Part shown: piece by piece, positions 8,197-36,837 of the stretch | Layout of the letters: every line of letters begins with the position of its first letter | How positions within the stretch are numbered: position 1 is the stretch's first letter | Source of the DNA: an uncultured Flavobacteriales bacterium | Lineage (GTDB): Bacteria; Bacteroidota; Bacteroidia; CAIKAF01 | Assembly (NCBI GenBank): GCA_903837495.1 | Contig: CAILUT010000002.1 | Location: 1-37,945, forward strand | DNA length: 37,945 nt | Direction: 5' to 3' | The notes under the pieces: generated by a model | Seen by the model: the letters and a program-made list of their open reading frames with translations, nothing else | What the model was told of the DNA's origin: nothing | Database searches by the model: none | Made by a program: the position numbers and the translations under genes

Positions 8197-8366
8197 TTTT
8201 TTTTGAGGGGCCTGCGGTAGGGATTGAGCCAGGCAGCCCGCAAGGGTGGCGGGGCCTGGCCCGCGTGGCGCGGAGGCGACTTTAGGAGCCACCGCAAGCC
8301 CGCTGGGCCAGCCCCCGGCAACAGCGGACTGCCGGCGAAAGCCCGCAACCGCCCAACTAAAAAAAA
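8197..8366 (+). repeat. Structured G+C-rich interspersed element, copy A
   Basis: First of four related elements. In this orientation the conserved blocks are GGGATTGA (8220-8227), the apical block GGCGACTTTAGGAGCC (8275-8290) and GAAAGCCCG (8337-8345). Pairings visible: GCGGT 8214-8218 with ACCGC 8348-8352; GGCAG 8232-8236 with CTGCC 8329-8333; CCGC 8238-8241 with GCGG 8324-8327; CTGGCCC 8256-8262 with GGGCCAG 8305-8311; GGGG 8251-8254 with CCCC 8312-8315. A T8 run (8197-8204) faces an A8 run (8359-8366). It lies 15 nt beyond the stop of the DUF1295 gene, in antisense orientation to the flanking genes. Neither strand ends the hairpin in a U-run, so it is not a standard intrinsic terminator. 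Confidence 0.85.
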
Positions 8367-11510: not shown

Positions 11511-11663
11511 TTTGGGCGGCGGACGGGCTTTCGCGGGTTGTCCGCGGTTGCCGGAGCCGGGCCCAGCGGCCTTGCGCGGGCTCCTAAAGTCGCCTGCGCG
11601 GCACGCGGGCCCCGCCCCGCCACCCTTGCGGGCAACCCTGCTCAATCCCTGCCGCGGGCGGCC
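11511..11663 (-). repeat. Structured G+C-rich interspersed element, copy B
   Basis: Same family as copy A, here with the conserved blocks on the minus strand (apical block at 11579-11594). Outer stem GCCGC 11651-11655 / GCGGC 11516-11520. The second stem is CAACCC 11633-11638 / GGGTTG 11535-11540, where copy A has GGCAG/CTGCC: both partners changed and pairing is kept. It sits in the 490-nt gap between the symporter and dnaX genes, about 145 nt upstream of the dnaX promoter box, in the same direction as both genes. The 3' flank in element orientation is A-rich. Confidence 0.85.
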
Positions 11664-22361: not shown

Positions 22362-22511
22362 CTTTTTTTGGGGCGGCAGCCGGGCTTTCACCGGTAGTCC
22401 GCAGCAAAAGGTGGTGGGGCAGCGGGCTTACGGGGGCTCCTAAAGTCGCCTCCGCACCACGCGCCCCATCACCTTTCGCTTTGCGTGCTACCCGGTTCAA
22501 TCCCTGCCGCT
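22362..22511 (-). repeat. Structured G+C-rich interspersed element, copy C
   Basis: The conserved blocks lie on the minus strand (apical block at 22435-22450). The outer stem is CTGCCGC 22504-22510 / GCGGCAG 22373-22379, longer than in copy A. Further stems are GGTAG 22393-22397 / CTACC 22488-22492, and the arms 22410-22420 / 22463-22473. The orientation is antisense to the flanking genes. The outer arm GCCGC (22506-22510) could instead pair with GCGGC at 22523-22527 just outside the element. The 3' flank in element orientation is an A-run. Confidence 0.85.
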
Positions 22512-22756
22512 TCCAAATGAATGCGGCTACCTTTCAAAAAAACCACACAGCCCCCCAATTCCGCTTGCAGCTGCCCCATAAATAGCATCTTACTCCAACG
22601 CTGCCACACCATAAATGTCATTATGGCAGTTTTATCTGGGTAAAAACCGCCAAAAAGGAGGAATTTTGTACTGCTTTCCGCCAATTTTTGCCATTTTTTT
22701 CTGTGGAATGATTTTGGATATGGAGGGGAAAATTTTACTCAATAAAAAATTCAATT
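22512..22756. other. Intergenic region upstream of dnaK
   Basis: No gene is supported. It holds only the candidate dnaK promoter near 22688-22716. I found no clear CIRCE or other heat-shock operator by eye. Confidence 0.5.
22688..22716 (+). promoter_or_regulatory. Candidate dnaK promoter
   Basis: TTG at 22688-22690, an 18-nt spacer and TGATTTTG at 22709-22716, one mismatch from TAnnTTTG. It would leave a leader of about 35 nt. Two other one-mismatch boxes occur nearby (GAATTTTG, AATTTTTG), so the choice is weak. Confidence 0.35.
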
Positions 22757-34104: not shown

Positions 34105-34260
34105 GGAGCCGCCCGCGGGCGGGATTGAGCCAGGTAGCTGCCCTGCAGGGAAGCCATGGGCCCGCGAGCTGCGCAGGCGACTTTAGGAGCCCGCGTAAAG
34201 CCGCTGGGCCCAAGGCTTGCCCAAGGGCACTACCGGCGAAAGCCCGGCAACCCGCCCAAA
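34105..34260 (+). repeat. Structured G+C-rich interspersed element, copy D
   Basis: The conserved blocks are on the plus strand, the same direction as the flanking genes (apical block at 34176-34191). The outer stem is GGGCGGG 34117-34123 / CCCGCCC 34251-34257. Further stems are GGTAG 34133-34137 / CTACC 34230-34234, TGCCCT 34139-34144 / AGGGCA 34224-34229, AAGCC 34151-34155 / GGCTT 34214-34218, and TGGGCCC 34157-34163 / GGGCCCA 34206-34212. Several stems differ from copies A-C yet stay paired. The 3' flank is A-rich. Confidence 0.88.
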
Positions 34261-34311: not shown

Positions 34312-36837
34312 ATGCGGTATGGCCTTGGGTTTTTACTCTTTTTATTATCGATGCATGCCGTTTGCTGGGCTCAAACAAATTCGTTTCAGGGAACATTGAG
34401 CGATGCGCAGGGCGAACCCTTGCCATTTGCCGGCCTTATTTTTAAAGGTCAAACTTGGGAGATTTTTAGCAGTACCGATTTAAATGGTCGATTTAGATTG
34501 GCCATTCCAAGGGATGCTTCTTTTCGTGTTTACCTTGATTTAAATCGAAAAAAGAAATGCATACTGGTCCATAAAAAGTCAGATTCTTTAGAGGTTGACC
34601 TTCGACTTTCGGAAAAATTAGAGCATGAGCTTCGAACGGTGTCTGTGTTGCCATCGCCGGATGAAACGATGCCCAATTTTGTGATGAAGCAAGCCATACA
34701 GCGCCGAAATTTGAATTTAAACCGGATGGGAAGTTTTACGATGTGGCATCGGGTAAGTTCAAAATCGAGGGTAACAAATACCCCGCCTGCGTATCCAAGG
34801 CTGTGGCTGTGGGACGCGGTTCCCGATACACACGAAAGGGGGACTCGATTTTTTTTGCAGTATTTTTCTGAATTAAATTCCCAACCTTCGGCTGGGGTTC
34901 ATTCGGAGTTGGTTTCAGATTTCAGGATGTTTGGGCAGCCTGAATCCTTTGCCTTGCAATCGGCTCAGTTTTCCGAAATTCACTTGTATCGGCAGCGCAT
35001 TTGGTTAAATGGATTTGCAGAGTTTCCCTTTGTTTCGCCTTTATCTTGGGATGCTTTTTTTTACTATCGATTTTCAGGCAGCGAATGGTATTATAAAGGT
35101 GGGCAAAAGGTGTATGTAATCCAGGTGCTGCCGCGGAACAGGAATAGTCCGACGTTTCAGGGGGAAATTGAAATTGCAGAAGGAAATTGGGATGTTGTAA
35201 ACTTTAAATTGACGGCGGGGAAAAAGGCTGGATTGGTTTTGGTGGATTCTGTAAAATTGGAATTTCAGCAACAGGCGGGTCAAGGCGGGTATGTTCCAGC
35301 GAAGCGCGTTGTTTTGGCTTGGAAGCAATTTTATGGGGCGGCGCTGACGTTTGACTGGACCTCGGAGGTTGATTCGGTAAAAAGCTGGGGAGCCGAACAG
35401 GAACGGGAAACCAAAAGGCGCTTCTCAATGCCTATAAATGCCCTGAATTTCGATTCCGTCTTTTTTAGTCGGCATTTTCAGGCCGAGGAAGTTGAATTCC
35501 AGAAAATATGTGAAATGGATTCCTTGCTGAATTCAAGCCATTTTAAGGGGATTGTACGGTCTGGGCGTCGGGGAATAGGTCGGCAATTTGAATGGTACCA
35601 CCCTATATTGGGCGGGAATTTTAGGGATTATGCAGCCCAAACTGCGTTTGGATTTGATGGCTTGTTCAACGAGCAGTTTGAAATAAATACCGTAGAAGGC
35701 CCCACCTATAAATGGGGCTGTTCGTTTAACAAGCGATTTGAGGGGGGCTGGGAGTGGAGTGTTTCGCCGAAATTAAGGTATGGTTTTGCCGACCAAGAAT
35801 TCAAGGCCAAGGTAAAAACCGAATTGTTTTCGCGGAGAAAGGGGATAAAACTAACCTTGGCAGGGGGCAGTTATGTGTTTCAAATCAATTCTTCTGAGCC
35901 AATAAACCACTACATCAACACCCTTTACACGCTTTTTTACCGGCAGAATTTCATGAAATTGTATCGGAAAGCGTTTTTGAGTTGGAATTATGAACAGGAA
36001 GTGATCAATGGCCTTTATGTTCAAGCAGGGGCCGAGTATGCCATTCGCAGCACCCTGGAGAACAATTTTTCTTGGTCAATTTCAAGTTTATATGGAGGTA
36101 GTTTCACGCCCAACAATCCGAATTCGACAAGCAATCCAGTGTATGAGTTAATCAACAATGCGGCATTGATTTTGCGAGGTGGCCTTACCTTTAGGCCGCA
36201 GCAGCGGTACATTCGGTATTTGGGCGACAAACATGTTTTAAATGCAAAAGGGATAGAGTTGTCGGTTTTTATGGATGCGGGGGTTCCGGGGTTTTTGAAC
36301 AGCGATGTATCTTACTTAAGGTGGTTGTTCAGCTTGCGCAACGAATTTAATCTGGGCTTATTTGGGCGAAGCACCCTGTTGCTTCGTTCGGGTTGGATGG
36401 CCTTTGCGAATCGACTTACCTATTTGGATTTTACCCATTTTTTAGGCGATCAAACCTATTTTTTGGGCAATGCCCGGGAGCGCGTTTCGTTAGACCAATT
36501 CAGGGGCTTGGGATATTATACATATTCGACCCGGGGCTCGTATTTTGAAGGACATTGGCAACATGATTTTGAGCATACCTTATTGAAAGAGGTTCCTTTG
36601 CTGCGGGCGCTTCGATGGAATTACCTGGTTGGGGCGAACGTTTTGATGATGGCCGACGCCTTATTTACTCCCTACACCGAGGTGTTTTTTGGCATAGACC
36701 GGCTGTTGGCCGCAGTTCGCCCGTTGGAAATGTTCAATTTGCGATTAGACTTGGCCATGCAAGTGAACGAAAGTGGATTTCAACCTCCGATGATTTTACT
36801 TGGAATTGGCTCCAATTTCCACAAAGTGCCTCGGTAA
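34312..36837 (+). CDS. DUF5686 family outer-membrane protein with carboxypeptidase-like regulatory domain
   Basis: 841 residues: signal peptide (LGFLLFLLSMHAVCWAQ), a carboxypeptidase-like regulatory domain (about 22-100; FQGTLSDAQGEPLPFAGLIF), and a long C-terminal part matching DUF5686 with many amphipathic aromatic strands ending in ILLGIGSNFHKVPR, consistent with an outer-membrane beta-barrel. No TonB plug domain is present, so it is not a TonB-dependent receptor. The function is unknown; genes of this family are widespread in Bacteroidota. No clear promoter box lies in front of it; repeat copy D is 51 nt upstream of its ATG. Confidence 0.85.
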   Translation: MRYGLGFLLFLLSMHAVCWAQTNSFQGTLSDAQGEPLPFAGLIFKGQTWEIFSSTDLNGRFRLAIPRDASFRVYLDLNRKKKCILVHKKSDSLEVDLRLSEKLEHELRTVSVLPSPDETMPNFVMKQAIQRRNLNLNRMGSFTMWHRVSSKSRVTNTPPAYPRLWLWDAVPDTHERGTRFFLQYFSELNSQPSAGVHSELVSDFRMFGQPESFALQSAQFSEIHLYRQRIWLNGFAEFPFVSPLSWDAFFYYRFSGSEWYYKGGQKVYVIQVLPRNRNSPTFQGEIEIAEGNWDVVNFKLTAGKKAGLVLVDSVKLEFQQQAGQGGYVPAKRVVLAWKQFYGAALTFDWTSEVDSVKSWGAEQERETKRRFSMPINALNFDSVFFSRHFQAEEVEFQKICEMDSLLNSSHFKGIVRSGRRGIGRQFEWYHPILGGNFRDYAAQTAFGFDGLFNEQFEINTVEGPTYKWGCSFNKRFEGGWEWSVSPKLRYGFADQEFKAKVKTELFSRRKGIKLTLAGGSYVFQINSSEPINHYINTLYTLFYRQNFMKLYRKAFLSWNYEQEVINGLYVQAGAEYAIRSTLENNFSWSISSLYGGSFTPNNPNSTSNPVYELINNAALILRGGLTFRPQQRYIRYLGDKHVLNAKGIELSVFMDAGVPGFLNSDVSYLRWLFSLRNEFNLGLFGRSTLLLRSGWMAFANRLTYLDFTHFLGDQTYFLGNARERVSLDQFRGLGYYTYSTRGSYFEGHWQHDFEHTLLKEVPLLRALRWNYLVGANVLMMADALFTPYTEVFFGIDRLLAAVRPLEMFNLRLDLAMQVNESGFQPPMILLGIGSNFHKVPR

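Follow-up and report, generated by a model that had tools for sequence, protein, structure and literature searches.

Long intergenic hairpins in an uncultured Flavobacteriales bacterium form an undescribed branch of the Flavo-1 superfamily

Four Hairpins between Genes

The window, by which we mean the entire 37,945-nt stretch of DNA analysed here, contains four copies (A to D) of one hairpin element, all of them intergenic (Table 1). Copy A lies between the genes for a beta-lactamase-fold protein and a DUF1295 protein, copy B between those for a DNA polymerase III gamma/tau-type protein and a sodium:solute symporter, copy C between a response-regulator gene and dnaK, and copy D between the genes for a PKD-domain protein and a DUF5686 protein. 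T-rich DNA flanks copy A on its 5' side and A-rich DNA on its 3' side, and in copy D the second and third stems are shifted (CTGCCCT/AGGGCA). A preliminary description of this DNA had placed four related copies here; their positions were right, but the ends it gave take in some flank beyond the covariance-model cores. The invariant blocks it named are exact in all four copies, and the stem pairs it listed fold as described. The DUF5686 gene (window positions 34312-36837) is missing at the same place in a sister species (G005), where copy D is kept.

Table 1. Hairpin copies and conserved modules located in the window.
Feature	Position	Strand	Basis
Copy A, whole hairpin	8212-8354	+	model R1, 155.5 bits, E 1.7e-29
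Copy A, foot module, 5' half GGGATTGA	8220-8227	+	sequence; invariant in alignment A1; Flavo-1 skeleton
Copy A, tip module GGCGACTTTAGGAGCC	8275-8290	+	invariant block
Copy A, foot module, 3' half GAAAGCCCG	8337-8345	+	sequence; invariant
Copy B, whole hairpin	11514-11657	-	model R1, 139.7 bits; tip module 11579-11594 (-)
Copy C, whole hairpin	22371-22512	-	model R1, 144.0 bits; tip module 22435-22450 (-)
Copy D, whole hairpin	34113-34257	+	model R1, 132.0 bits; tip module 34176-34191

A Fold Kept through Paired Changes

The consensus is a single long imperfect hairpin of about 144 nt with two conserved mismatch modules, one at the foot and one at the tip. The foot consists, in order, of GCGGC/GCCGC, GGG/CCC, an A.G mismatch, UU/AA, and a GA/GA internal loop, while the tip, GGC-GA-C-UUUA-G-GA-GCC, can form a second tandem G-A motif. 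Between the modules lie two covarying stems, the sequence of which is free provided that pairing holds. Alignments made by a covariance model are biased toward that model; alignment A1 was made with MAFFT, and structure was not used. Across 38 copies, double changes occur in 31 of the 50 pairs, cells changed on both sides number 222 (52 in shuffles), and 94.5% of cells are paired in the named structure (80.1% when shuffled). The covariation score of 0.350 collapses to 0.029-0.075 when the pairing partner is slid by 1-3 columns. The elements keep their fold through paired base changes, and the selection on the fold first read from paired changes among the four window copies is thus borne out in the larger alignment. 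The mismatched loops (A.G, GA/GA, and C.A) are nearly invariant across the family.

Copy Number and Distribution

The expectation of a high-copy genomic family, drawn in the preliminary description from four copies, proved correct. In the 2.51 Mb of the window's own genome, 184 sites match the 16-mer tip block GGCGACTTTAGGAGCC with at most 2 mismatches and 3 match a reversed control, and a covariance model built from the 38 copies (R1) gave at least 150 matches there, all 150 candidates scored having passed, so that the total for this genome is a lower bound. In 662 kb of stretches read from this genome (G000) and G005, the density is one element per 10.5 kb, and therefore about 200 copies per genome; at that number, and at about 144-145 nt each, the elements occupy roughly 1% of the own genome. 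Their strands are balanced along its large contigs, and a replication-strand bias was rejected on that ground.

Searched over related genomes, R1 picked up members in each of the five remaining genomes of the genus, with at least 53 copies in G005, and also in some other families. Members are divergent in two of the five, sharing the foot and differing at the tip. A model built from divergent relatives (R2), with up to 10 candidates scored per genome, matched 58 of the 295 genomes searched from the class, representing 28 of 155 genera, and deeper scoring of up to 150 candidates per genome gave at least 147 matches in G004, at least 109 in G055, and at least 75 in G127. Carriers of the long form are uncultured Flavobacteriales/Bacteroidetes metagenome-assembled genomes from water samples, for example from La Plata and a deep lake cast. 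A phage or plasmid origin was considered and rejected, since phages, plasmids, and viral contigs gave no match. No account of the long form came up when the literature was searched with sequence words and repeat terms.

Relation to Flavo-1

Flavo-1 (RF01705) dates from 2010, when it was entered as an RNA candidate to which no function was assigned; Rfam classes it as an sRNA. It occurs in Bacteroidetes in many dispersed copies (PMC2864571, PMC9723704). The preliminary description had considered that the window copies might belong to a known Rfam class such as Flavo-1, or else be undescribed, and its suggestion of Flavo-1 came close to the mark. At gathering thresholds no Rfam family matches anywhere in the window; the copies do not reach the Flavo-1 threshold of 42 bits, and copy A has no Flavo-1 match, nor any other worth noting, even at E<=5. 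In the own genome there are four sub-threshold Flavo-1 matches (25-29 bits), none at the R1 elements listed.

The kinship lies in the foot. The Flavo-1 foot skeleton, <<<-<<---<<---<<<< with GATtGA / GgAaAGC, is present in the window family, and the Flavo-1 model matches short relatives of the family at 36.7 and 32.6 bits (E 7e-5 and 9e-4). In six further genomes Flavo-1 matches partly coincide with R2 matches (e.g., G131:C50:3848, G159:C2:34767, and G129:C154:3434), and in G056 there are also Flavo-1 copies that score above gathering, at up to 62 bits. In the reciprocal direction, a model built from 17 short forms only, gathering-level Flavo-1 members included (R3), recovers Flavo-1's own skeleton and, on the window, picks out the four copies and no other site, with E-values of 3.3e-5, 3.8e-4, 1.7e-3, and 0.95 that are rough owing to a shortened calibration; on other stretches every R3 match is a known element. 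By these matches in both directions the foot module GGGATTGA/GAAAGCCCG is homologous to Flavo-1, the window copies being long forms beyond the reach of the Rfam model.

The two forms share the skeleton of 3 bp, an A.G mismatch, 2 bp, and a GA-rich internal loop, as well as Bacteroidetes hosts and many dispersed copies. Unlike Flavo-1, the window family is twice as long (144 versus 76 positions) and has a conserved tip module and covarying outer stems, whereas the Flavo-1 tip is simple. Within a Flavo-1 superfamily that spans the Bacteroidia, the window family is an undescribed long form, set apart by the further conserved module at its tip. In addition to its long forms, the own genome has a few short hairpins that resemble Flavo-1 below threshold (L366 1501-1569 (-), L367, and L368), and behind each of them comes a second GC-rich hairpin.

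Dispersal and Retention

Near-identical copies (97-100%) occur at different loci, with flanks that are unrelated from the hairpin ends outward. Since similarity begins and ends with the hairpin, the spreading (or converted) unit is the hairpin itself; no target-site duplication was noticed at near-identical copies. A composite transposon was rejected, as inverted pairs 1.5-2.3 kb apart enclose ordinary genes and no common transposase. MITE-like repeats of the enterobacterial RU-1/RU-2 type are likewise non-autonomous, intergenic, and about 100-170 bp long (PMC2759123); unlike these, in a comparison by description, the window family combines the lack of a noticed target duplication with a covariation-kept fold and invariant loops. 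Integron attC sites, which are recombination hairpins of single-stranded DNA with cassette arrays, an integron integrase, and conserved R''/L'' boxes, may be compared only loosely, the window copies being dispersed and not arrayed.

Copies are also kept in place. Copy B has an ortholog in G005 with compensatory stem changes, and the site of copy D is filled in both G005 and a further sister genome, G002, which also has an element opposite a short gap in the window. Site C is occupied in the window genome and G005 and empty in the sister genomes G002 and G003; a diverged element upstream of dnaK in the distant genomes G001 and G004 makes loss, rather than gain, possible there. At 21 orthologous sites compared between the window genome's species and G005, the elements are 91% identical and the adjacent 60-nt flanks 69% (null 49%), against 45% at fourfold sites of 13 window genes, and the pairs contain 53 double Watson-Crick replacements in place. 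Identity of this order, together with the compensatory changes, means that copies are retained as well as dispersed. The own ortholog is the nearest copy at 17 of the 21 sites and a paralog is closer at 4.

Could such a pattern arise without function? Template-switch correction of quasi-palindromes, combined with gene conversion, would yield compensatory changes, and would fit inter-copy changes that run nearly all from Watson-Crick to Watson-Crick, identical copies at several sites, and the 4 of 21 orthologs nearer a paralog. The same correction, however, should erase the A.G, GA/GA, and C.A loops, which instead stay nearly invariant and are common to Flavo-1 across the class, and the data already hint that, at single sites, loops are better conserved than stems; nor would it preserve site-specific stems in 17 of 21 orthologs. 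We consider this explanation very improbable. Selection on the fold, acting in place, is the simplest reading.

Pairing, Strand, and Gene Context

The preliminary description had left the selected molecule as either RNA or single-stranded DNA, and pairing and context data now lean toward DNA without settling the matter. G-U accounts for about 1.3% of the pairs in the elements and A-C for about 1%; the corresponding values in 7 tRNAs from the same stretches of these genomes are 7.6% and 0%. Wobble is thus six-fold rarer than in the tRNAs, and strict pairing with near-symmetric mismatches is expected of a DNA hairpin. Recent one-sided changes nevertheless favour G-U over A-C on the + strand (21 versus 4, p 0.0009). 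The + strand therefore matters, which RNA would explain likewise.

Within the genus, judged from home-made gene calls on 105 cases that include shared ortholog sites, 72 elements have their 3' end turned towards a stop codon on the opposite strand (p 2e-4), usually no more than a few tens of bases away, and convergent gaps are over-represented (39/105 versus 66/479). In distant lineages orientation to genes is inconsistent (16 of 37 loci). Relative to the adjacent gene whose stop codon it faces, the element lies mostly antisense, and wobble favours the other strand. The flank past the hairpin's 3' end is A-rich, and the T-rich side precedes the hairpin.

The foremost rival is a structured RNA, which we hold to be rather unlikely. 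In that reading the + strand would yield either a small RNA or a segment of an antisense transcript or untranslated region, and the folded RNA would bind a protein, stabilise or process transcripts, or act at convergent gene ends. The strand preference of wobble and the gene-end context in the genus fit such roles, as do tandem G-A internal loops that are conserved in place and, like the tip, would make equally good RNA motifs; the Rfam classification of Flavo-1 points the same way. Set against this are the rarity of G-U, the conflict between the antisense position of the element and the strand that wobble favours, an A-rich sequence instead of a U-tract after the hairpin, a 5' flank with no clear promoter, and the disappearance of the orientation bias in distant lineages. 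The transcription of Flavo-1 in Flavobacterium psychrophilum is inconsistent as well, copies lying sense or antisense to transcripts indifferently and many being untranscribed (PMC9723704).

Three narrower roles were tried and rejected. An intrinsic terminator requires a T-run on the transcribed strand after the hairpin, and here the T tract comes before the hairpin and the A tract after it; the 5' flank has weak position-specific composition and no motif of a promoter; and a universal gene-end rule, which holds in the genus, is absent in the 37 distant loci.

HuH-Y1 Transposases and Comparison with REPs

HuH-Y1 transposases are thought to copy or move REP elements. A PF01797 search of the own genome found no Y1 transposase; a protein query found two RAYTs, both missed by PF01797, and each has an inverted element copy about 80-430 nt upstream. 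Across the genus, 7 of 13 HuH-Y1 genes lie near an element, against a baseline of 20% for any gene (p 0.006, post hoc), and such adjacency is also seen in some distant genomes. In G005, with its at least 53 copies, no HuH-Y1 gene was detected.

Most HuH loci inspected bear short REP-type palindromes of their own: one own-genome RAYT has in-frame or flanking GTAGAGACGC..GCGTCTC copies, and subclass-1.2-like genes have GACCCC..GGGGTC arrays. For this reason we do not file the hairpin as the cognate REP of those genes. As for the genes themselves, the two own-genome RAYTs (L202 1474-2466 on contig C47; L209 1357-2205 on contig C5) are enlarged by in-frame repeats, which in one of them are of a canonical short REP type (VETQYFASP, as in GTAGAGACGCAATATTTTGCGTCTCC); the C47 gene has a direct repeat of about 120 bp (GATTTGGGCCTTGACAAATTCAATC...GGCCTGAACGCCAAAAT) on both flanks. 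Subclass-1.2-like TnpA genes, with a YIKNQKEHH-type signature, sit in short-palindrome arrays in G001, G004, G056, and G029 (L186, L188, L192, and L348, respectively), the palindromes being of the GACCCCTTCGGGGTC type, AACCCC..GGGGTT. No REP is listed for RAYT subclass 1.2 (PMC6006769).

Like REP/BIME elements, which accompany RAYT (TnpA-REP) genes, the window elements are high-copy, intergenic hairpins with a conserved fold, dispersed as units and sometimes found beside HuH-Y1 genes. Unlike them, they have conserved internal loops and strong retention at orthologous sites, and retention in place this strong is, to our knowledge, atypical of REPs. They are also 144 nt long, where REPs measure 21-65 nt (PMC6006769), and they have no GTAG/GTGG tag at the foot. 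That the hairpins are REPs proper, the cognate repeats of the RAYT/TnpA (HuH-Y1) transposases of the genus, accordingly seems improbable to us. The inverted copies upstream of both own-genome RAYTs, the adjacency in the genus and beyond, and the "atypical secondary structures" of Bacteroidetes RAYT subclass 2.6 (PMC6006769) speak for it; the separate short palindromes of most inspected HuH genes, the G005 result, and the lack of the defining tag, a GTAG in the stem covarying to GTTG and GCAG, speak against it. An IS608-like TCAA cleavage site after the A-tract was also rejected: ATCA/TCAA is enriched near the 3' end, at scattered positions.

A Model for the Long Hairpins

With belief and doubt about evenly balanced, we favour the following model, in which the element is a long hairpin of the Flavo-1 superfamily that acts as folded single-stranded DNA, is mobilised in trans in a REP-like manner, and is then retained by the host. 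The selected molecule would be mainly one folded DNA strand, as a hairpin or an extruded cruciform, the loops of which may be read by a protein. By analogy with HuH-Y1 transposases and REPs, an enzyme acting in trans might copy or move the hairpin, with insertion in the genus often just behind a gene's stop codon. Inserted copies would then be retained because the fold had gained a host use, of which a site for protein binding or chromosome structure is the most plausible, perhaps with a further effect on convergent transcription.

More tentatively, and with rather more doubt than belief, we speculate that Flavo-1 and the long forms constitute one Bacteroidia-wide superfamily of single-stranded DNA hairpins, mobilised in trans by a previously unrecognised enzyme and co-opted, at hundreds of fixed sites per genome, to bind a conserved protein. 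If this were true, an Rfam "sRNA" would really be a DNA-level element. In any case Flavo-1 now has a far larger relative, present in more copies and bearing a second conserved module, and about 1% of the own genome is explained by one family. For tests of function, the long form supplies ortholog pairs, a fold that is well resolved, and naturally occurring compensatory mutants in the hundreds, and its strict Watson-Crick pairing and in-place retention turn the choice between RNA and DNA into a testable question.

A second dispersed repeat of up to about 330 bp (TTCTTCGCCACCCCAATACGTGACGAA in part) often lies 5' of the hairpin element; it was located at L134 17398-17692, L162 593-925, and L165 19194-19526, in the 5' flank of L013, and at about 7000-7500 in L137.
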